The position numbers and the translations under genes were made by a program. From Gemmatimonadota bacterium (lineage in GTDB: Bacteria > Gemmatimonadota > Gemmatimonadetes > Longimicrobiales > Gaopeijiaceae): a stretch of 64,000 nt of DNA. Below, piece by piece: positions 2,428 through 63,091 of this stretch (position 1 is the first letter of the stretch; each line of letters starts with the position of its first letter). The notes below the pieces were generated by a model. The model searched no databases, was not told the origin of the DNA, and was given only the letters and a program-made list of their open reading frames with translations. Where the stretch lies: the NCBI GenBank assembly GCA_026706635.1, contig JAPOYJ010000072.1, positions 1-64,000 of the forward strand. Direction: 5' to 3'.

Positions 2428-3225
2428 TTAGACACCGCCCAGCATTCCCGCGCGCGGCGAAGACGGCACCGCGATCTCCCTAGCCTCCATCCGGCCCGCA
2501 AGATAGGCGTCACGTCCCGCCTGCACCGCTAGCCTCATGGCTCGGGCCATCGCCACCGGATCGGCGGCGCTTGCGATCGCCGTGTTCATGAGCACGCCGT
2601 CCACCCCCTGCTCCATCGTGACGCACGCATCGGACGCTGTGCCCACCCCCGCGTCGACGATAACCGGAACCGAGAGCCGCCGTTTGATCTCGCGGATGTA
2701 GTAGGGGTTGACGACGCCGAGACCGCTGCCGATCGGGCTCGCGAGCGGCATCACGGCGACGCACCCTGCGTCCTCGAGGCGCAGTGCCGCAATCAGATCG
2801 TCGGAGGTGTAGGCCATGACGCTGAAGCCCTCGCCGACCAGCTGGCGGGCCGCCTCGATCGTGGCTGCCGTGTCGGGCAGGAGGGTGCGCTCGTCGCCGA
2901 TGACCTCGAGCTTCACCCACTCGCTCAGGCCTGCGGCGCGGCCTAGGCGCGCGTACCGTAGCGCGTCGGCGACGGTGTAGCACCCAGCCGTGTTCGGCAG
3001 GAGGAAGAACTCCGCCGGATCGAGGTGGTGCAGAATGCCCTCCTCAGCGCCTCGGTCCAGATCGACGCGCCGAACCGCCACCGTCACCATCTCGGCGCCG
3101 CTCGCACGGATCGCGCCGACCATCTCGGCGTTGCTGCGGTACTTGCCCGTCCCCACGATCAGGCGCGAGGCGAAGGTCCTGCCTCCGATGACGAAATCCC
3201 CGTCGACCACGGTTGTGCCCGACAC
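2428..3225 (-). CDS. thiG: Thiazole synthase ThiG
   Basis: 265 residues, normal for ThiG. It makes the thiazole phosphate of thiamine from deoxyxylulose phosphate, dehydroglycine and ThiS-thiocarboxylate in the cytosol. Visible family signatures are FASRLIVGTGKY near the N-terminus, the Schiff-base lysine in WVKLEVIGD, and the phosphate-binding segments ASPIGSGLGV and VDAGVGTASDA. The GTG start follows directly after the thiS stop (TAGGTG), so the two are translationally coupled. Confidence 0.95.
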   Translation of the reverse strand: MSGTTVVDGDFVIGGRTFASRLIVGTGKYRSNAEMVGAIRASGAEMVTVAVRRVDLDRGAEEGILHHLDPAEFFLLPNTAGCYTVADALRYARLGRAAGLSEWVKLEVIGDERTLLPDTAATIEAARQLVGEGFSVMAYTSDDLIAALRLEDAGCVAVMPLASPIGSGLGVVNPYYIREIKRRLSVPVIVDAGVGTASDACVTMEQGVDGVLMNTAIASAADPVAMARAMRLAVQAGRDAYLAGRMEAREIAVPSSPRAGMLGGV

Positions 3226-4002: not shown

Positions 4003-4041
4003 TGTAAACTATGATTTACATTATGTAACCTAGAGATTACA
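4003..4041 (+). repeat. Twin-palindrome repeat core, copy 1
   Basis: Two 18-bp imperfect palindromes, TGTAAACTATGATTTACA (4003-4020) and TGTAACCTAGAGATTACA (4024-4041), separated by TTA. Same 18+3+18 layout as the cores at 10734, 17399, 31919, 36139, 41592, 46922 and 63053. The flanking parts of the full element are not recognisable here. Confidence 0.85.
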
Positions 4042-4200: not shown

Positions 4201-5916
4201 ATGTCCGTAGAGTATCGCCACCGGGATACTCATCGCCACCGAAGGGGCGGCGCTCTCACCCTCGCCTTGAGCGCCTCCGTCCTGGCCGCGGTCGCCGCCT
4301 GGGTGGTCGGGTGCGGCGAGCCCCAGGCGCCCGTTGCAGTCGGGGATATACCGGAGCTGACGGTGTATGTGGACAGCACCGAGTCGGTTGATATCGCGCG
4401 GTATTTCAGCGACCCTGACGGAGATGCCCTCACGTACGCGGCCTTCGTATCGGACACCGAGGTGGCGACGGCGTCCGTGTCGGAGAGCGTGGTCACGGTG
4501 AGCGGGGTGTCGGTGGGTACCGACACGGTGGCGGTGATTGCGACTGACCCGGACGGACTTACGGCGAGGCAGGCCTTTTCGGTGACTGTCCGCCTCACTG
4601 ACCGGCAAGTGTTGGAGATCCTGTACGACGAACTGGGCGGCGACAACTGGGGAGTCACCACGAACTGGAAGACCGACGCACCGCTTGAGGAGTGGTTCGG
4701 GGTGAGCACGGGTGCGGACGGCCGGGTTGATACGCTGGAACTCTCCAACAATTCGCTAACCGGTGAGATCCCGCCCGAGCTGGGCGACCTGTCGGATCTC
4801 GAATACCTGAGTCTCGGCTACAATTCGCTGACCGGCGAGATTTCGCCCGAGCTGGGGTACCTGTCGAATCTCGAATGGCTGTCTTTCCACGGCAATTTCC
4901 TAAGCGGCGAGATTTTGCCCGAACTAAGTGACTTGTCGAATCTCAACAAGTTGTATCTCTCCGACAATCGACTAACCGGCGAGATTCCGTCCTGGCTGGG
5001 CGACCTATCGAATCTCGAAACCCTGAATCTCAGCAACAACCAGCTAACTGGCGAGATCCCGTCCCAGCTGGGCGACCTGTCGAGTCTCGAAGGCCTAGGT
5101 CTCGGCAACAATCAACTAACCGGGGAGATTCCGCCGTGGCTGGGCGACCTGTCGAATCTCGAATACCTGGATCTCGGCAACAATCAGCTAACCGGCGGGA
5201 TTCCTTCGGGGCTGGGCGACCTGTCGAATCTCGAATGGCTGCATCTCGGCGGTAATTCGCTCACCGGCGAGATTCCCCCAGAGCTGAGTAATCTGTCGAA
5301 TCTCTTTTGGCTGGAACTTCCCAACAATTCGCTCACCGGCGAGATCCCGACCGAGCTGGGTGACCTGTCTGATCTCTACGCGTTGTATCTCAACGACAAT
5401 CAGCTTACCGGTGGGATTCCTTCAGGGCTGGGCGACGTGTCGAATCTCAGAGATCTGTATCTCAACAACAATCAGCTTACCGGCGAGATTCCGCCAGAGC
5501 TGGGCGACCTGTCGAATCTCGACGATCTGTATCTCGGCAACAATCTGCTAACCGGTGAGATTCCGCCGTGGCTGGGCGACCTGTCAAGTCTCAACTATCT
5601 GTATCTCGGCAACAATCAGCTAACCGGCGGGATTCCACCGGAGCTGGGCGACCTGTCTTATCTCTACAACTTGTATATCAACGACAATCAGCTAACCGGC
5701 GAGATCCCGCCAGAGCTGGGTGACCTGTCGAATCTCACCAGGTTGTATCTCAACGACAATCAGCTTACCGGCGAGATTCCGCCAGATTTCCTCAACCTAT
5801 CGGCGCTTTGGTGGTTCTCTTGGGACGACAATGACGGTCTTTGTGCGCCCGACACCAGCGAGTTCGACGAATGGCTGGACGAAATGCTGGAACGGAGTGG
5901 CCCGAGGTGCGATTGA
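4201..5916 (+). CDS. Plant-type LRR lipoprotein with cadherin-like domain
   Basis: 571 residues from the ATG at 4201, which follows GGGAGG by seven bases; the frame is open back to 4042 but that extension resembles nothing. Lipobox VVGC, then a cadherin/Ig-like domain ([16 protein letters not shown]), the N-cap LYDELGGDNWG...[14 protein letters not shown], about 17 LRRs and the tail LCAPDTSEFDEWLDE...GPRCD. Closely related to the protein at 595. Predicted to be anchored on the cell surface; the ligand is unknown. A repeat-borne promoter lies at 4015-4043. Confidence 0.88.
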   Translation: MSVEYRHRDTHRHRRGGALTLALSASVLAAVAAWVVGCGEPQAPVAVGDIPELTVYVDSTESVDIARYFSDPDGDALTYAAFVSDTEVATASVSESVVTVSGVSVGTDTVAVIATDPDGLTARQAFSVTVRLTDRQVLEILYDELGGDNWGVTTNWKTDAPLEEWFGVSTGADGRVDTLELSNNSLTGEIPPELGDLSDLEYLSLGYNSLTGEISPELGYLSNLEWLSFHGNFLSGEILPELSDLSNLNKLYLSDNRLTGEIPSWLGDLSNLETLNLSNNQLTGEIPSQLGDLSSLEGLGLGNNQLTGEIPPWLGDLSNLEYLDLGNNQLTGGIPSGLGDLSNLEWLHLGGNSLTGEIPPELSNLSNLFWLELPNNSLTGEIPTELGDLSDLYALYLNDNQLTGGIPSGLGDVSNLRDLYLNNNQLTGEIPPELGDLSNLDDLYLGNNLLTGEIPPWLGDLSSLNYLYLGNNQLTGGIPPELGDLSYLYNLYINDNQLTGEIPPELGDLSNLTRLYLNDNQLTGEIPPDFLNLSALWWFSWDDNDGLCAPDTSEFDEWLDEMLERSGPRCD

Positions 5917-8477: not shown

Positions 8478-10684
<2,207 letters not shown>

Positions 10685-10851
10685 TACAGGAGGGACAGGC
10701 GGGCGAAGTGGTCCAGCCGCGGGTACGGGTCATTGTAAACCATGGATTACATATTGTAAAGCATAGTTTACATGACGAAGAGGCGAGCGAAGCTGTTCGG
10801 CGTGGATGCGGCGATGCTCCCGCCGTGGGAGGTCTGTCCCGGGCTGCTAGC
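10685..10851 (-). repeat. MITE-like repeat, copy 2 (minus orientation)
   Basis: Core palindromes 10755-10772 and 10734-10751 with a 3-bp spacer. The outer end at 10847-10851 reads, on the minus strand, GGCTAGCAGCCCGGGACA, and its TAG is the stop codon of ruvB. After the core, toward queA, a second stretch resembles the left arm again (GCTGGACC...TTCGCCCGCCTGTCC), so the queA leader may hold parts of two copies. Confidence 0.82.
10732..10760 (-). promoter_or_regulatory. Candidate promoter for queA operon in repeat core
   Basis: On the minus strand: TTTACA (10755-10760), 17 bp, TACAAT (10732-10737). The -10-like hexamer is 48 bases from the queA start. Both hexamers overlap the palindromes. 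Match by eye; transcription start not known. Confidence 0.45.
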
Positions 10852-11908: not shown

Positions 11909-12511
11909 CTACCTGCCTTTCGCCGGCCGGCGGCTGGCGAGCACCCGCCTGACGAGCTCCTCGCTCCCCTCCGCCTCCCCCTGCCCCATCGCCTTCTGCA
12001 CGGCGGCGTCCGCGTCGGCGAATGTGTACCCGAGGCCGGTGAGCGCCGCGACGGCCTCCGCGGCAACGCCGGCCTTCCCATCGGGAGCGCCCTCGGAGGC
12101 GGCGATGTCACCCACCTTGTCTGCCAGATCCAGGATGATGCGCTCCGCCGTCTTCTTGCCGAGTCCGCTAACCTGCACCAGCGCACTCGCGTCCTCGGAT
12201 GCGATCGCCCGCGCCAGTCGGCCGGCCCGGTAGGCGCTGAGCATCGCCATCGCGAGGCGGGGACCCACCGTGTGCACCCCGAGAAGCCGTCGAAAGAGCG
12301 CCCGCTCGCTCTCCTCCACGAAGCCGTAGAGGCAGGGCGCGTCGTCCTGGACGACGTAGGCGGTAAGGAGCGTCGCGTCGCCGCCGGGCGGGGGCAGACG
12401 GCCGTGCACCGTGAGCGGAACGTGCACCTCGTAGACGACCCCACCCGCCGTCTCGAGCTCGGCGCGCCCGGGCTCGAGCGCCAGCAGCCGTCCCCTGACC
12501 CTCGCTATCAA
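11909..12511 (-). CDS. ruvA: Holliday junction DNA helicase subunit RuvA
   Basis: 200 residues with the TTG start at 12509-12511, which overlaps the ruvC stop (TTGA) and gives the usual N-terminus MIARVRGRLL. Helix-hairpin-helix repeats (LLGVHTVGPRLAMAML and VSGLGKKTAERIILDL) bind the junction; the C-terminal domain (EAVAALTGLGYTFADADAAV) contacts RuvB. Longer upstream readings of the frame are not conserved. Confidence 0.94.
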   Translation of the reverse strand: MIARVRGRLLALEPGRAELETAGGVVYEVHVPLTVHGRLPPPGGDATLLTAYVVQDDAPCLYGFVEESERALFRRLLGVHTVGPRLAMAMLSAYRAGRLARAIASEDASALVQVSGLGKKTAERIILDLADKVGDIAASEGAPDGKAGVAAEAVAALTGLGYTFADADAAVQKAMGQGEAEGSEELVRRVLASRRPAKGR

Positions 12512-17320: not shown

Positions 17321-17577
17321 GCAGCCCGTGAACAACCCTCCCACGGCATTCGAGCAGCGCTGCATCCCCGCTGGACCGCTTCGCTCGCCTGTCCGCATTG
17401 TAATGTATGCATTACAATATGTAATCTCTGATTTACATTGCCTCTACCCTCGGCTTCGCTCTGTGTTGCTCCTCGGGCCAATAGCGCTGCGGCTATTGGC
17501 CCTTCGTCGCGCCTTGCCAGCGGAGCGCTTCGCCGCTCTCGGTGCTCGCGCGAGGCTGTCCACGGACTGCTAGCGAC
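17318..17577 (+). repeat. MITE-like repeat, copy 3 (full length)
   Basis: The best complete copy, about 255 bp. Left end TAGGCAGCCCGTGAACA, right end TGTCCACGGACTGCTAG: imperfect terminal inverted repeats flanked by TAG on both sides. Inside are a small CCGTG/CACGG hairpin, the twin-palindrome core (17399-17416 and 17420-17437; the first has perfect 7-bp arms TGTAATG/CATTACA), and an 11-bp perfect hairpin GGGCCAATAGC/GCTATTGGCCC. It sits between pdhB and pdhC, ending just before the pdhC start. Confidence 0.88.
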
Positions 17578-31669: not shown

Positions 31670-32042
31670 GCAGCCCGTGGACAGGCCTCCCACGGCATTC
31701 GAGCAGCGCTGCATCTCCGCTGGACCGTAGTGCTCTGCGTTGCTCCTCGCACGAATAGCCCTGCTATTCGCCCTTCGTCGCGCCTTGCCAGCGGAGCGCT
31801 TCGCCGCTCTCGGTGCTCGCGCGAGACTGCCCACGGACTGCGGCAGCCCGTGGACAGGCCTCCCACGGCAGGAGCAGCGCTGCATCTCCGCTGGACCGCG
31901 GTGCTCGCCGGTGCAGATTGTAATCTGTGCTTTACAATATGTAATCCATGGTTTACAGTGGCCCTACCCTTGGCTTCGCTCCGCGTTGCTCCTTGGACCG
32001 GTGGCGCTGCTAGGAGCCCGTGGACGATCCCCCCACGGTATG
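31670..32042 (+). repeat. Tandem array of three repeat copies (7, 8, 9)
   Basis: Copy 7 (31670-31841) has both ends but no core; its hairpin is CGAATAGC/GCTATTCG. Copy 8 (31843-32012) has left arm, core (31919-31936 and 31940-31957) and a truncated right arm. Copy 9 (32013-32042) is a left end only, GAGCCCGTGGACGATCCCCC. This array fills the space between the menC-like gene and the PilB-like gene; no other gene is seen. Copy 9 encodes the C-terminus of the PilB-like protein on the minus strand. Confidence 0.85.
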
Positions 32043-35191: not shown

Positions 35192-36073
35192 TCATCGGTC
35201 GCGGGTGATCCGCTGCGGCCCCATCAGCGCGATCTCGCCGGGCGGACGCCCCTCCATCGAGGCACCGCCCCTGAGGTCCCGGTGCAACTCGGCGTAGTGA
35301 AGGAGACGGTCCTCCGGGTCCCAGAAGAGACGCCCCGTGACGATCCCCTCTATGGACTGGCTGGTTGCGAGCCCCCCCTGGCTCCCGCTCCCGGAAATCC
35401 GCACCTCGGCGTGAAGGGAAATCTCGAGCACCGGGCGTCCGTCCACCATGGTGTCGCCCACCAGCCTATAGGCGCGATTCGTCGTCGAGGTGGTCGCCAT
35501 GCCTCCCGCGGAGGAGTGCCAGACGGCCGAGTCGCTCCAGCTGTCGCCCGCCTCCACGGCGCCTCCTGGCAGTCCTGGGAAGAGGTCGTGGGGGAGCTGG
35601 TTGAAGAGCGAGAACTGACCGGCGTCGTCGGAGAGGTCGGGGCCGGAAACCGCCTCGGTGACTCCCCTGCTCCCCACCAGGAAGACCATCTCGCCCTGTG
35701 CGTCGTCGCTGTCGAGCGTCTGCACACCCATCGCCGGATTGCCCACCGAGCCGCCGAAGTCGACGATCTCGGCCACCACCCGCATCCCCTCCGACTCCTC
35801 CTCGAAGGCCAGTCGAAGCGAGGTGCTGGCCACCGCGGTCAGCTCGACTCCTCCCGGTGCCGAAGCGATCGTGATCGCCATCGTGTCGTGCACGTGGTAG
35901 GTGGGGCGCTCATCCGCCGGCTCCCCGTGAGCGAGGGTGCGCTGCGGCACTGCGAACACCGTGGTCGGGAAGGCAGAGACGGCGGCCAGCGACGCGGCGA
36001 TGGCCCAAACTCGATTGGTTGTATTCGACTTTCCGCATCTCGATAGGCCCCTCCGACCTGGCAGCCCGTGCAC
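35192..36073 (-). CDS. Exported protein of unknown function
   Basis: About 293 residues with a signal peptide (VWAIAASLAAVSAFPTTVFA) and a beta-rich domain. No family recognised. The only near-upstream start in frame is GTG at 36071-36073, inside the left end of repeat copy 10, so the element seems to supply the start codon and the first residues. The first portion of an even longer frame is pure repeat sequence. Confidence 0.65.
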   Translation of the reverse strand: MHGLPGRRGLSRCGKSNTTNRVWAIAASLAAVSAFPTTVFAVPQRTLAHGEPADERPTYHVHDTMAITIASAPGGVELTAVASTSLRLAFEEESEGMRVVAEIVDFGGSVGNPAMGVQTLDSDDAQGEMVFLVGSRGVTEAVSGPDLSDDAGQFSLFNQLPHDLFPGLPGGAVEAGDSWSDSAVWHSSAGGMATTSTTNRAYRLVGDTMVDGRPVLEISLHAEVRISGSGSQGGLATSQSIEGIVTGRLFWDPEDRLLHYAELHRDLRGGASMEGRPPGEIALMGPQRITRDR

Positions 36074-36205
36074 AAACCTCCCACGGCATTCGAGCGGCGC
36101 TGCACCTCCGCTGGACCGCCTTGCTCGCCTGTCCATACTGTAATCTACGCCTTACAATGTGTAATCCATGGTTTACAATGCCAGCGTCCCTCGCTTCGCC
36201 CTGTG
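36061..36205 (+). repeat. MITE-like repeat, copy 10
   Basis: Left end GCAGCCCGTGCACAAACCTC, left arm, core (36139-36156 and 36160-36177), then only a short right arm. Lies between the exported-protein gene and the Kbl-type gene, both on the minus strand. Confidence 0.85.
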
Positions 36206-36303
36206 TCGCTCCAGCCCCGCAAGCTACCGGTTGCGGACGGGCCGGGCAATGACCGGGAGATCATGCGCAGAGCACGCGGTACCGACGGTGCCCCGACGTC
36301 CCC

Positions 36304-37823: not shown

Positions 37824-40466
37824 GTGAAGAACCCAGCACCCCGGCGAACCGGAAGCGTTGCGTTGGGGGCGGCTTCCGTCTTCTTGGCGGCGGTCGTGGT
37901 CTTGGGCGCGTGCGAGAGCGCACAGCCGCCTGCGGCGCGCGACCCGATTCCCCAGGTGACGATCCACGCCGGGGAGACGGACACGGTCATGGCGTGCTTC
38001 AACGACCCGAACGGCGATGTGCTGACCTATTCGGCCACCTCGTCGGATGCCGGTGTGGCCACCGTCTCCGTTTCCGGGACGAACGTCACCGTAGCCGCGG
38101 TCTCGCCCGGGAGCGCGTCGATTACGTTGACGGCGCGTGATCCGGGCGGTATGGAGGGCCAGCAGAACTTCGACGTAGTGGTGCCGAATCGGGCACCGCA
38201 GCCGGCTGGCACCATTTCGCCTGCCACGGTCTCCGTCGGCCAGTCGGAAGCTACGGATCTCTCCTCGTACTTCACCGAGCCGGACGGGGAGGCGCTGGTC
38301 TACGGAGCCGCCTCGTCGAATGAGGAGCTGGCCGGAGTCGCAGTGTCTGGCAGTGTGGTTACAGTCACGGCGATCGCCAAGGGCGCCGTGACGGTGACGG
38401 TGACGGCGAAGGACCCCGGTGGACTCTCGGCGGAGCAGAGCTTCCGGGTGACGGTCCCCAACCGGGCGCCGGTGGCGGTGGGCGAGTTGGAGGACCTGGA
38501 GGTGGAGGTTGACAGCACGGCGGAGCTGGACGTCGCCGACTCCTTCGAGGACCCGGACGGCGACGCGCTGACGTATGCGGCCATCTCGTCCAGCCCGACC
38601 ATGGCGACGGTCTCGGTGTCGGGGAGTGTGGTGACGGTTACTGGCGTCGCTAAGGGCACGGTGACGGTGACGGCGACCGACACGGAGGGGCTCTCGGCGG
38701 GGCAGAGTTTTCGGGTGACCGTCGCAAATCCGGACCGGGTGGCGCTGGTGGCGCTATACGACGCATTGGGTGGGGCGGGATGGGTGACGAATTCGAATTG
38801 GAAGACCGACGCCCCATTGGGTGAGTGGCACGGGGTCACGACGAACGCGGACGAGCGGGTCGTGATGCTGGAGCTGAGGGAGAACGGTCTCGTCGGCCAG
38901 CTCCCGGCTGCACTGGGGAGGCTGCACCTACTCGAGCGCCTTGATCTCGCCCTGAACGGTGCCGGAATCACCGGCTCGATCCCGCCCGAGCTGGGCGATC
39001 TGGCGGCCCTTGAAGAGCTGTGGCTGGAATCCAATTCGCTGACGGGTGCGATCCCGGTTGAGCTGGGCGACCTGTCGAATCTTAGGGACCTGCTGCTTGC
39101 GGAGAACCTGCTGTCCGGTCCGATCCCGCACGAGCTGGGCGACCTCGAGGGGCTGGTGGAGCTGTCGCTTGCGGGGAACGAACTGACGGGTTCGATTCCC
39201 GCGCCGCTCGGCGGTATGGGGGAGCTCGTGGTGCTGGCGCTGCAACAGAACCAGCTGGTAGGAGCTCTGCCCGCCGCGCTCGGCAACCTCGGGGCGCTCG
39301 AGTTCCTCTACCTCCACGGGAACGAGCTGACGGGCTCGATCCCGGCTTCCCTCGGCGACCTCGACGGGCTCGTCGAGCTCTCGCTTCGGGACAACGAGCT
39401 GGAGGGCGAGATTCCGGCCGCCCTGGGGAGCCTCTCGAGCCTCGAGCAGCTGGCGCTGCAGCGCAACCAGCTTCGGGGCAACGCCGGGCTGACGGGCGCG
39501 CTGCCGCTCGAGCTGGCCGGTCTCGGCGCGCTGCTGACCTTGGACCTAAGGGAGACGGGGCTCTGCGCGCCCAGGGACAGCGCCTTCCAGGAGTGGCTCG
39601 ATGGCGTCGAGACGCGCCTCGGCGTCTGGGACTGTCCGAGTCCGGACAAGGGGCCGCTGGAGGAGCTGTACGAGGCGACCGGAGGCGGGAGCTGGACGGA
39701 CAACACCGGCTGGCTGGAGGCGCGGCGTCTGGGGGACTGGTACGGAGTGACGACGCGGAGCGGGTCGGGCCACGTGGCGCGGCTGGAGCTTGGGGAGAAC
39801 AACCTGGCGGGAGAGATTCCCTCGACGCTGGGAGACCTCGCCGACGTCGAGGTCATCTACCTCCACGGGAACGAGCTGACGGGTTCGATCCCGGCTTCCC
39901 TTGGCGACCTTGATGGGCTCGTCGAGCTCTCGCTTCGGGACAACGAGCTGGAGGGCCAGATTCCCGCAGCTCTGGGGAGTCTCTCGAGCCTCGAGCAGCT
40001 GGCGCTGCAGCATAATCAGCTTGAGGACAGCCTGCCCTCGTCTCTCGGCAGACTGACCGAACTGGTGTCACTGTACCTTCACGAGAACGAGCTGACTGGA
40101 TCGATCCCCGATTCGCTTGGCAACCTTGCCGCCCTCGAGGAGCTCTCTCTCCGGGACAACGAATTGACCGGAGAGATCCCCTCCTCTCTGGGCGACCTGG
40201 ACTCCCTCAGGCTGCTGGCGCTCCAGCGTAACGACCTGGAGAACGCCCTGCCCTCCTCCCTAGGGAACCTGACGGAGCTGGAGCAGCTGCTCCTGAACGG
40301 CAACGCGGAGCTGTCAGGGCCGCTGCCTTCGAGTCTGACCAACCTGACAGATCTGAATACGCTGGATCTGCGTGATACCGACCTCTGCGCACCCACGGAC
40401 GAGGACTTCCAGGAGTGGCTGGAGGGGATCGAGACGCGCCGGGGCGTATACAACTGCACCGATTAG
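37824..40466 (+). CDS. Large LRR lipoprotein with cadherin-like repeats
   Basis: 880 residues, GTG start preceded by GGGAGGAG. Lipobox VLGAC, then three cadherin/Ig-like domains (each ending DPGG or TEGLSA.QSFRVTV), an N-cap ([10 protein letters not shown]...W.GVTT), about eleven LRRs, a CxxP cap ([15 protein letters not shown]), then a second N-cap ([16 protein letters not shown]) with about eight more LRRs and a second cap. Segments 39313-39408 and 39862-39957 are nearly identical, so the second module arose by duplication. Its TAG is followed by CAGC, possibly a decayed repeat end. Confidence 0.88.
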
Positions 40467-40585
40467 CAGCGACCCGGCCCGCGTGGCTTGGTCGATCACG
40501 GGGATCAAGGCGAGCCGCCTGCGGTTGCCTGCGACTCCGAGGGGCCGGGCCCGGTGCGAAAACAACCAAAGCGGAGTTCCTGACC

Positions 40586-41516
40586 ATGCTCATGTTACCT
40601 GACACCTTCGGCAACTCCATCGTCCGCTTCGCAGCCAGCGTCGGAGTCGTAGTTGGGTCTCTCTCCTGCGGGACCGGGCCGCCGGACCCGGCGTCGGACA
40701 GGGATCTGCTGGAGGATCTGTACGAGTCGACTGGCGGAGAGGAATGGACGGACAACTCGGGCTGGCTCGAGGCGTCGCTGCTAGGGGACTGGTACGGGGT
40801 CACGACGCACAACGGCACCGAGGATGTGGCGCGACTGGAGCTCGGGGAGAACAACCTGGCGGGAGGGATCCCCTCGACGCTTGGCGAACTTGCATCCGTA
40901 GAGGCGATCTGGCTCTACGGGAACCAGCTTAGGGGTGGGATTCCGGAGTCCCTTGGCGACTTGGACGGACTGCTGGATCTGTCGCTGCGCGACAACCAGT
41001 TGAACGGTGAGATCCCGGCCACCCTAGGCAATCTGTCGAGCCTGGAGCAGCTCTCGCTGCAGCGGAACGAGCTTGAAGGCAGGGTGCCGGCGCTCGGCAA
41101 TCTGACCTCACTGGTGGGATTGTTCCTGCACGAGAACCGATTGACCGGAGCGATCCCCTCGGCTTTGGGCGACCTCGCCGCTCTCGAGGAGCTTTCTCTC
41201 CGGGACAACCAATTGACTGGTGAGATCCCCCTCCTCTCTGGGCGATCTCGGCTCTCTCAGGCTGCTGGCGCTCCAGCGCAACGACCTGGAGGGTGCCCTG
41301 CCCTCCTCCCTGGGAAACCTGACGGCGCTGGAGCACCTGCACCTGAATGGCAACGCCGGCCTGTCGGGGCCATTGCCCCTGAGCCTGAGCAACCTTGCCA
41401 TGCTAGCGACGTTGGATGTGCGGGAAACGGGCCTGTGCGCACCGACCGATTCCGACCTCCAAGCGTGGCTGGCGGGGATCGTGACGCGGCGCGGCGTCCA
41501 TAACTGCACGGGCTAG
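40586..41516 (+). pseudogene. Frameshifted LRR protein (module duplicate)
   Basis: Resembles the second half of the preceding gene: signal-like N-terminus ending SLSC, N-cap LYESTGGEEWTDNSGW, then LRRs. At about 41228-41233 the run ATCCCCCTCC has one C more than the equivalent ATCCCCTCC at 40177, moving the frame; the remaining LRRs and cap (LCAPTDSDLQAWLAG...VHNCTG) continue in the next frame to TAG at 41514. Either a real frameshift or a homopolymer sequencing error. Confidence 0.75.
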
Positions 41517-41650
41517 CAGCCCGTGGACAAGCCTCCCACGGGAGGAGCGGCGCTGCATCACCGCTGGACCGCTTCGTTCGCTTGTCCATAATGTAATCTA
41601 CGCTTTACAATATGTAATCCATGGTTTACAATGCCAGTGTCCCCCGCTTC
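41514..41650 (+). repeat. MITE-like repeat, copy 11
   Basis: Left end CTAGCAGCCCGTGGACAAGC; its TAG ends the LRR gene. Core 41592-41609 and 41613-41630 is the closest to the consensus, with TTTACA and TACAAT 17 bp apart. The right arm is lost where the next gene ends. Confidence 0.87.
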
Positions 41651-42626
41651 AACGCGCCAGGACCGCGGCCCGGCGCCTGCGCAGACCCTCCAGCCCCTGC
41701 AGCATCGCGTCGACCATCTCGGGGAGCTCGTACTCGTGGTGCCACCCCCACTCCTCGCGCGCCCTGGCGTCGTCGATGCGCGTCGGCCACGAATCCGCAA
41801 TCGCCTGGCGGACCGGGTCGGGCTCGAAGGCGATCTCGAACTCTGGACGGCGTGCCCTGATCGCATCGGCGAGCTCGGCGGGGGTGAAGTGCATGGCGGA
41901 GACGTTGTAGGCGTTGCGGTGGCGAAGCGAAGACGAGTCGGCGTCCATCAGCTCGAGGATCGCCCTGATCGCGTCGGGCATGTACATCATCGCCATGCGG
42001 GTGTCGGGGTGCAGCGGGCAGCTGAAGCGACGGCGCTCGACGGCGGCGTGGAAGATCTCCACCGCATAGTCCGTTGTGCCGCCACCGGGCGGTGCCGTGT
42101 ACGATACCAGACCGGGGAAGCGCAGCCCCCGAACATCGACGCCGAAGCGAGCGTGGTAGTAGTCGGAGAGCATCTCGCCGGCCACCTTGGTGACGCCGTA
42201 CATCGTCGTCGGGCGCAGCACGGTGGTCTGGGGGGCCGGGTCGCGGGGAGACTCGGGGCCGAACACCGCGATGGAGCTGGGAGCGAAGACCCGGCAGCCG
42301 ATCTTGGCCGCCGCCTCGAGCACGTTGACCAGCGAGTCCATGTTGACCCGGTACGCCCGGTAAGGACTCGCCTCCGCCGCCGCCGACAGGATCGACGCCA
42401 GGTGGAGGATGCAGGTGGTGCCGAAGTCCCTCGCTGTCCCGAGAAGCGCGTCCGCGTCGAGGCAGTCCAGCTGCCCGACCTGCGCGCCCGGCCCGCCGCG
42501 AGCCCACACGGAGGGATCGCGAACGTCGGTCGCGAGGATGGCGTCGGCGCCGTGGCGGTTGCCAAGGTGCCGGACTAGCTCGGTGCCGATCTGTCCACCG
42601 GCACCGGTTACGAGGAAGCGCTCCAT
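41649..42626 (-). CDS. SDR-type L-threonine 3-dehydrogenase
   Basis: 325 residues from MERFLVTG. NAD-dependent epimerase fold: GAGGQIG, ILHLASILSA, PSSIAVFGP, MYGVTK (YxxxK), then the segment RFPGLVSY...PGGGTTDYAVEIF characteristic of SDR threonine dehydrogenases. Oxidises threonine to 2-amino-3-ketobutyrate, the substrate of Kbl at 36304. Its 3' end abuts repeat copy 11. Confidence 0.85.
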   Translation of the reverse strand: MERFLVTGAGGQIGTELVRHLGNRHGADAILATDVRDPSVWARGGPGAQVGQLDCLDADALLGTARDFGTTCILHLASILSAAAEASPYRAYRVNMDSLVNVLEAAAKIGCRVFAPSSIAVFGPESPRDPAPQTTVLRPTTMYGVTKVAGEMLSDYYHARFGVDVRGLRFPGLVSYTAPPGGGTTDYAVEIFHAAVERRRFSCPLHPDTRMAMMYMPDAIRAILELMDADSSSLRHRNAYNVSAMHFTPAELADAIRARRPEFEIAFEPDPVRQAIADSWPTRIDDARAREEWGWHHEYELPEMVDAMLQGLEGLRRRRAAVLAR

Positions 42627-42666
42627 TCCATGAAATGACGCCCGGAAGCGACCACGGGGCAAGACG

Positions 42667-43164
42667 TTAGTGGCGCATCTCCCGACCGGGGCGACGGAAC
42701 CAGGGCCCGCCCTCGCGGCGGAAGCGGTCACGATCGCGACGCCGGAAGTCGCGAAAGCGCTCGCGCTGCTCCTCGGTCAGGAGCTGGTCGATCTCGGCGT
42801 TGAGCGAGTCGAGGCCGCGCTCGAGCCTCGGCAGCACCTCCTGCATGGCGGCCTGCGCCCTGTTCCGCCTCCGTTCCATGGCCTCCTCGATCGCGTCGCG
42901 CTGCTCCTCGGCGAGCCCCAGCTCCCTGGCCATTCGCTCCGTCACCCGGGTGCGGGCAAGCTCCCGGTAGCCTGGGTATCGGTCCAGCATGCCGCCGGGT
43001 CCACCCGGAGGGCGACCGCCCGGACCGTCCGGGAAGGGTGGACGGCCGGTCGCCGAGTAGCCGTCCCCTCCGTCGTCCAGGAGGCGCATGGCTCCCACCG
43101 ACGCGAAGGCCCCCGCTAGGAAGGACGCAGCCAGCACCAGTACTGCCGTGGTTCGACTCTTCAT
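42667..43164 (-). CDS. CpxP/Spy-like periplasmic protein
   Basis: 165 residues. Signal anchor (TTAVLVLAASFLAGAFASVGA), a Gly/Pro-rich stretch, then a helical domain with two LTxxQ-like motifs (LGLAEEQRDAIEEAM and LLTEEQRERFRDF), as in Spy/CpxP/CnrX-type chaperones or sensors. Directly overlaps the putative anti-sigma gene, so it may sense envelope or metal stress. Confidence 0.8.
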   Translation of the reverse strand: MKSRTTAVLVLAASFLAGAFASVGAMRLLDDGGDGYSATGRPPFPDGPGGRPPGGPGGMLDRYPGYRELARTRVTERMARELGLAEEQRDAIEEAMERRRNRAQAAMQEVLPRLERGLDSLNAEIDQLLTEEQRERFRDFRRRDRDRFRREGGPWFRRPGREMRH

Positions 43165-46787: not shown

Positions 46788-47015
46788 CAGCCCGTGGACA
46801 AACGGCATTATCTGCGAAACAATGCCGGTGAGCGCAGCGCGTTTCCGCCCCGTGGGTGGCCACTCGCGGCCATGGGAGATTCGAGCAGCGCTACATCTCC
46901 GCTTTGCCCGCCCGTTCATATTGTAATCTACGCTTTACAATATGTAATTCATGGTTTACAATGCGAGTGACCCAGCTTCGCTCTGTGCTGCTCCTTGGGC
47001 CGGTAGCCCTTCGTG
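46785..47015 (+). repeat. MITE-like repeat, copy 13
   Basis: Left end TAGCAGCCCGTGGACAAA, interrupted by about 80 unrelated bases that include the hairpin CGGCATT/AATGCCG (46803-46827), then GATTCGAGCAGCGCT, the core (46922-46939 and 46943-46960) and a short right arm. Confidence 0.83.
46934..46962 (+). promoter_or_regulatory. Candidate promoter in repeat core
   Basis: TTTACA (46934-46939), 17 bp, TACAAT (46957-46962), pointing to the propeller lipoprotein gene at 47073 with about 110 bases of leader. Confidence 0.42.
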
Positions 47016-59223: not shown

Positions 59224-59582
59224 GAACGATACCCCGCTATCGCCTCCTCGGAGCCCGTGCCAAGTTCGGGAACTCGCTCATCCCGGAGAGCGCATGAGAT
59301 CAAGCGGCGAAGCCGTCGGGCGAAGGGAGTGTCGGGTCGGGATGTCCATACCCCCTAATGTAAATCCGAGATGACAGAATGGAAAGCACGCTTTACGGAT
59401 AGCCAGCCGTGGGCACCTACGAGCGGAAGTCCCGGCTCCTCAAGCTCTTGGGCGGCCCACATACCTGACGCAGCAGCGCTGGTCGCCGCCAGAGCCGAAA
59501 GAAGCCATGGGTGAATGGCCTTGCGCCGCAGCCAACCTGCTTGCACGATAGTGTACGTCAGTCATACGGAGGACATCCCGAT
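59224..59582. other. Intergenic region with decayed repeat
   Basis: No convincing gene. It holds the degenerate twin palindrome at 59359-59397 and, near 59546-59582, the leader of the relB-like gene with GGAGG 13 bases before its ATG. Confidence 0.5.
59359..59397 (+). repeat. Degenerate twin-palindrome core, copy 14
   Basis: TGTAAATCCGAGATGACA, 3 bp, TGGAAAGCACGCTTTACG: the 18+3+18 spacing is kept although several palindrome bases have changed. Confidence 0.6.
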
Positions 59583-63052: not shown

Positions 63053-63091
63053 TGTAAACCACGATTGTCACTATGTAATCTACAGATTACA
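63053..63091 (+). repeat. Twin-palindrome core, copy 16
   Basis: TGTAAACCACGATTGTCA (63053-63070) and TGTAATCTACAGATTACA (63074-63091) with a 3-bp spacer. The second palindrome contains the stop codon of the next minus-strand gene. No arms recognised. Confidence 0.82.

Follow-up and report, generated by a model that had tools for sequence, protein, structure and literature searches.

Paired palindromes as putative XRE-family operators dispersed by a MITE-like repeat in one Gemmatimonadota genus

The ARG boxes of ArgR are arranged in pairs of 18 bp + 3 bp + 18 bp, and the paired palindromes described here (twins) share their 21-bp pitch and pairing but have other recognition bases. XRE operators composed of two palindromes are also a known kind. 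Dimers of the XRE-family protein C.Csp231I, a C protein of a restriction-modification system, bind two palindromes cooperatively and the length of the spacer is critical (PMC4321490). A second XRE-family protein, C.Kpn2I, acts as a roadblock to elongating polymerase at such a site (PMC6237814). Twins resemble C-boxes in having two palindromes for what would be cooperating XRE-family dimers, but they read TGTAA-N8-TTACA with a 3-bp spacer, whereas C-boxes read GACT/AGTC or CTAAG-N5-CTTAG, and a non-systematic look at the genes beside twins noted none of restriction-modification type. In Enterococcus faecalis, the CylR1/CylR2 system consists of the membrane protein CylR1 and the repressor CylR2 (PMC5454873); many twin loci likewise hold a gene for a protein of ~150 aa followed by a gene for an XRE protein of 64-75 aa. 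This likeness is one of protein and gene layout. Unlike CylR2, the candidate reader in Gemmatimonadota has its HTH joined to a PBP_like domain and is encoded at the start of the modABC operon, and the putative operator has been multiplied by a mobile repeat.

That repeat resembles MITEs, themselves a known kind of element, in its size (~100-250 bp), imperfect terminal inverted repeats, TA/CTAG ends and many copies. It differs from them in bearing a conserved, putative protein-binding operator. Computation establishes the motif, its rigid geometry, the anatomy of the repeat, the placement at gene 3' ends, the conservation of the contact bases and the association with XRE genes. On this sequence evidence, we consider it probable that the 39-bp twin is a CylR2-like XRE operator for two cooperating dimers, with an XRE-HTH protein fused to a PBP_like domain (XRE-PBP) as its likely reader, and that MITE-like spread within one genus dispersed it. 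In the open-licence literature searched we found neither this twin operator grammar, nor the link between XRE-PBP and modABC, nor the spread to more than 100 maintained sites.

Twin palindromes in the window and their geometry

The stretch of DNA analysed here (the window, 64 kb, ~68% GC) belongs to a 2.8 Mb assembly in 86 contigs (the home genome, G000), 96% complete. The window holds 15 matches to TGTAA-N8-TTACA, 14 of which pair up, across a 3-bp spacer, into seven perfect twins; no match arose when the window was shuffled by dinucleotides. At the locus shown the features are:

41592..41630, + strand: putative twin operator, two TGTAA-N8-TTACA palindromes with a 3-bp spacer (exact match)
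41604..41632, + strand: promoter-like hexamers TTTACA-N17-TACAAT, formed by the same bases as this twin (exact match)
41516..41650, + strand: MITE-like repeat, left part, matching model positions 1-137 and including this twin (nhmmer)

This twin sits between two 3' ends, those of an LRR gene (40415-41503, +) and an NAD-dependent epimerase gene (41649-42731, -). The hexamers TTTACA-N17-TACAAT recur exactly at all four positions given in the sequence-only reading (4015, 10732 on the minus strand, 41604 and 46934; 0 expected), and further perfect twins lie at 17399, 31919 and 36139. Repeat copies and twins elsewhere in the window are:

17321..17572, + strand: full-length MITE-like repeat with terminal inverted repeats and twin 17399-17437 (nhmmer)
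31670..31843, + strand: twin-less repeat copy, modules A-C-D, junction 66/133 (nhmmer)
31843..32030, + strand: repeat copy with twin 31919-31957, adjoining the twin-less copy 31670..31843, between convergent genes (nhmmer)
36061..36212, + strand: repeat copy with twin 36139-36177 (exact match, nhmmer)
46860..47011, + strand: repeat copy with twin 46922-46960 (exact match, nhmmer)
10716..10847, - strand: repeat copy with twin 10734-10772 (exact match, nhmmer)
4003..4041, + strand: twin lacking clear repeat flanks and so counted as solitary, ahead of an LRR gene (exact match)
63053..63091, unstranded: degenerate twin, 18/20 contact bases, at a gene 3' end (mismatch-tolerant match)
59359..59397, unstranded: degenerate twin, 17/20 contact bases (mismatch-tolerant match)

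The palindromes first noticed in the window are real, since seven perfect twins there are joined by others to make 140 in the home genome, against 0 for a reversed-pattern control. Among the 159 strong arms, 155 are paired at a distance of exactly 21 bp, and third arms are absent from all twins; such a pattern marks two dimers bound in fixed register. This geometry fits the cooperative dimer pair that had been read from the 21-bp period. Pooled half-sites, common to several species, have the consensus TGTMAWSY, in which the G at position 2 never varies. Site picking made no use of the W, S and Y positions, and these nevertheless agree across three independent sets. The symmetry of the contact bases is preserved between copies and between species, so the twin withstands the second refuting condition set by the sequence-only reading. 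Symmetric half-site positions agree with one another no more than independence would predict and pairing covariation is absent, so the twin would be read by a protein as a double-stranded site and not as a folded hairpin. A hairpin or RNA element was rejected on this ground and by an Rfam search of the window, which returned no match. A BlaI/MecI-type TACA-N2-TGTA as the centre was likewise set aside, because the twin has a 3-bp spacer and its link to XRE genes is far stronger.

Repeat anatomy, placement and constraint

The home-genome repeat is modular, ~250 bp long, with ends GCAGCCCGTGGACA...TGTCCACGGACTGC, terminal inverted repeats and the twin at a fixed place in its centre. Repeat flanks surround 105 of 124 distinct sampled home-genome twins (~85%) and 19 are solitary, proportions that are approximate because the sample (n = 124) was partly fetched around TACAAT-type twins. 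The repeat often starts at a stop codon (the copy at 17321..17572 begins directly after one, TAG followed by GCAG), which places the twin at a median of 78 bp past the stop. Twin-less copies (A-C-D, junction 66/133, and A-D) are common and also have terminal repeats. The ends, checked for target-site duplication, read TAGCAG...CTGCTA or CTAG, and several copies deviate. Three tandem copies with a period of ~250 bp occur in the complete relative G021 (C1:207147-207893, locus L168). Elements of a related family, which have the ends GCGGCCCGCGAACAG...GTCCACGGACCGC (L114, ~12020-12196; L119, ~1314-1490 and 2825-3001), are sometimes found beside or nested with the main repeat.

The related contigs come from Gemmatimonadota metagenome assemblies, and we read the genus as sponge-associated, judging from isolate names alone. 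Between 22 and 197 twins (<=3 mismatches) are present in 21 of the 22 other members of the genus, against 0 for the reversed control; the sole exception, G009, has no twin at <=3 mismatches. The repeat family is found in 23/23 genus genomes, G009 included, and the G009 copies in the 760 kb examined (~22%) either have the twin-less A-C-D structure or are partial. Across 395 genomes of the phylum (<=1 mismatch) the twin array is restricted to this genus, and five genomes of three other genera in the same family, including G163, G278 and G298, have a single twin each.

Twin copies in the home genome lie mostly just after genes, not before them. The same holds for relatives, whose perfect twins have a median distance of 10.5 bp to the stop codon against 29 expected in the same gaps; in G021 the corresponding median is 36 bp, where 67 would be expected. 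Individual twin-to-stop distances are approximate, since the gene calls came from a home-made codon-usage caller. The TAA of TGTAA often serves as the stop codon in relatives, which also have solitary twins close to gene 3' ends, and convergent gaps hold 13 of 35 relatives' twins (23% expected from space). The genes beside solitary or divergent twins have no evident common function, and a common regulon was rejected on this basis.

Constraint on the twin is visible within repeats and at orthologous positions. When repeat copies are located through the left flank alone, they either carry a twin scoring 17-20 of 20 or lack it wholly; the single exception scores 13 owing to a small deletion. This near-perfect-or-absent pattern is repeated in unbiased contigs, where divergence from consensus is 2.0% at contact bases, 23.6% in the spacer and 20.1% in the repeat flanks. 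Within repeats, conservation of the twin may stem from constraint on the copies that transpose and not on each site in place. In the sister species G006 and G010, 8 of 10 twins found in G006 are kept at the orthologous position and the other 2 fall in indels. Changes in the retained twins affect 10/160 contact positions, against 32/152 in N8 plus spacer (Fisher, p = 2e-4) and 71/464 in the 30-bp flanks (p = 0.003). These orthologues indicate constraint in place, for which the repeat data alone are insufficient. Five related species retain the twin at the SulP locus with a freely drifting N8, and in one of the five the twin is decaying. The home-genome copies thus appear to be kept intact by selection.

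XRE genes downstream of twins

A search for a regulator gene with the motif in its own promoter, as had been suggested from the window, led to XRE-PBP in three lineages and to small XRE genes in other phyla. A neighbouring genus in the same family has its sole twin ~100 bp upstream of a gene that encodes an HTH (HTH_31/HTH_3) plus a PBP_like domain (PF12727) and is followed by modA, modB and modC; the operon at L035 has four annotated genes, the regulator and modABC. The orthologue in G021 (51% identity) has a twin ~64 bp upstream, and the home-genome XRE-PBP gene (contig C53) has an imperfect twin, 17/20, ~35 bp upstream. Compared with the G021 orthologue, the home-genome protein (L307/L365, 3484-4266, - strand) is missing ~75 residues of the PBP_like domain.

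In other phyla a small CylR2-like XRE gene lies within 560 bp downstream of the twin in 28 of 35 loci (2.6 expected), with none on the wrong side in the 35. Some XRE genes begin within ~35 bp of the twin; at other loci the two are separated by a gene whose product is 138-171 aa long, and 2/7 of these ~140-170 aa proteins tested gave weak matches to the DUF2178 membrane-protein family. Recurrent two-gene operons of this kind (~140-170 aa protein, then small XRE) are found behind the twin in several bacterial phyla and in one archaeal assembly (L036, L042, L045, L047, L050, L061, L062, L067, L068, L074, L077, L081, L094, L096, L101 and L103). Pfam HTH_3 was detected in 8/8 twin-linked proteins tested, and a recognition helix (S/T)R(Q/H)-x-(I/V/L) is common to 20/20 aligned. 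The closest solved structures to the XRE-PBP HTH and to a Lysobacter XRE protein are CylR2 and a PbsX-family regulator. One 39-bp operator grammar would thereby be tied, in several phyla, to a widespread and little-studied class of small XRE regulators together with their membrane partners, a link that makes twin binding and function directly testable.

The most likely reader in this Gemmatimonadota lineage, judged from gene order and homology, is XRE-PBP at the head of modABC. It is the only strong match to its HTH subfamily in 27% of the home genome and ~10% of G021; given that coverage of the home genome, another XRE protein could be the reader. In 760 kb (~22%) of G009, which lacks twins, neither XRE-PBP nor modA was found. 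We infer both that XRE-PBP binds the dispersed copies and that it senses molybdate. Against this assignment, a molybdate regulator needs no 100+ sites, and the genes beside them share no evident function; the imperfect promoter twin and shortened PBP_like domain of the home-genome XRE-PBP also count against it.

ArgR was considered as another reader and rejected. Its DNA-binding domain (PF01316) has no match in the home genome, with its 140 twins and 96% complete assembly, and is present in 22/22 other genus genomes including twin-less G009. The combination of a truncated XRE-PBP and no ArgR domain in the home genome, the richest in perfect twins, is suggestive only.

Possible functions of the dispersed sites

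We propose that two XRE dimers (Cro/C1-type, HTH_3) would bind the twin side by side. At the modABC operon the twin overlays a sigma-70-type promoter, a position at which binding would block RNA polymerase, and the bound regulator may thus shut its own promoter. At XRE genes, T occupies position six of the -10 at 31/34 gene-facing twin ends against 19/34 away-facing ends (p = 0.002); given the better -10 at the gene-facing end, the ancestral operator is well explained by autorepression through promoter occlusion. This operator would then have been spread by a MITE-like repeat with terminal inverted repeats to roughly 20-250 copies per genome, many of them 3' of stop codons, and the same regulator complex would sit at gene ends. 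If so, a mobile repeat has here taken the operator of a host regulator to at least 100 places, a concrete example with sequence evidence of selection on the sites.

What bound tetramers would do at gene ends is less certain. We tentatively favour a roadblock or insulator, a reasonable function for dispersed twins because C.Kpn2I stalls elongating polymerase; regulator titration and the needs of repeat propagation are the alternatives. In its strongest form, the genus would have turned the XRE operator of a molybdate operon into more than 100 maintained, MITE-spread tetramer sites that block read-through after genes. This extension is speculative and rather unlikely to hold in full; if true, the dispersed sites would constitute a dedicated protein-roadblock terminator or insulator system.

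One rival account, which we regard as unlikely although not negligible, is that the twin persists because movement of the repeat depends on it, as the transposase or regulator site of an autonomous MITE parent, and that the host makes no use of it. The fixed place of the twin within the repeat, its constancy among copies whose flanks vary and the wide differences in copy number between species agree with such a need. However, the common A-C-D and A-D copies have terminal repeats and no twin, solitary twins, which lie outside repeats, have been conserved at orthologous positions, and G009 has the repeat family without the twin.

Somewhat less probable still is that the twin is the site of a genus-specific nucleoid or chromosome-organisation protein, analogous to MatP or Noc sites, and not of XRE-PBP. 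The many sites, the lack of a common function among neighbouring genes, the 3'-end placement and the strong constraint would all suit a protein of this type. The same twin is nevertheless tied to XRE genes in many phyla, and XRE-PBP is the only strong match to its HTH subfamily in the portions of the home genome and G021 that were surveyed, both of which favour an XRE reader.

The sequence-only reading saw in the twin a regulated sigma-70-like promoter that the element could spread to drive downstream genes. Its first half stands in part, as twins do overlay -35 and -10 hexamers at XRE promoters, where the gene-facing end is the better -10; dispersed copies show no significant orientation signal. 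TTTACA-N17-TACAAT is built into the twin (74 in the home genome), some copies lie 30-80 bp ahead of a start codon, and, as had been noted, three of the four matches in the window are directed at gene starts: that of the LRR protein, that of queA (9653-10684, -; QueA PF02547; match 10732-10760, -) and, for the match at 46934-46962, that of an ORF at 47013 with no Pfam match. The fourth, at 41604, is directed into the 3' end of the convergent epimerase gene, and three of the seven perfect twins in the window are directed at gene 3' ends. An early sample (n = 14) gave 11:3 towards gene starts, a bias that weakened with more copies and once repeat orientation was considered: repeat copies with TACAAT are directed at gene starts 43:20, against 16:13 for those without (p = 0.25). 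Most copies lie in the MITE-like repeat after stop codons, solitary copies are close to stop codons and convergent gaps are enriched. Spread of a regulated promoter is therefore not upheld, and we consider it improbable as an account of the dispersed copies.

REP/REPIN-like hairpins moved by a RAYT (Y1) transposase would also be paired, dispersed palindromes at gene 3' ends; a Y1_Tnp protein was detected in 0/23 genus genomes while controls were detected, and the stems show no covariation, which effectively eliminates this option.

A further feature of the window is that two neighbouring genes contain long arrays of 72-bp (24-aa) leucine-rich repeats, at 1056-2300 and 4660-5909, that are ~75-84% alike.
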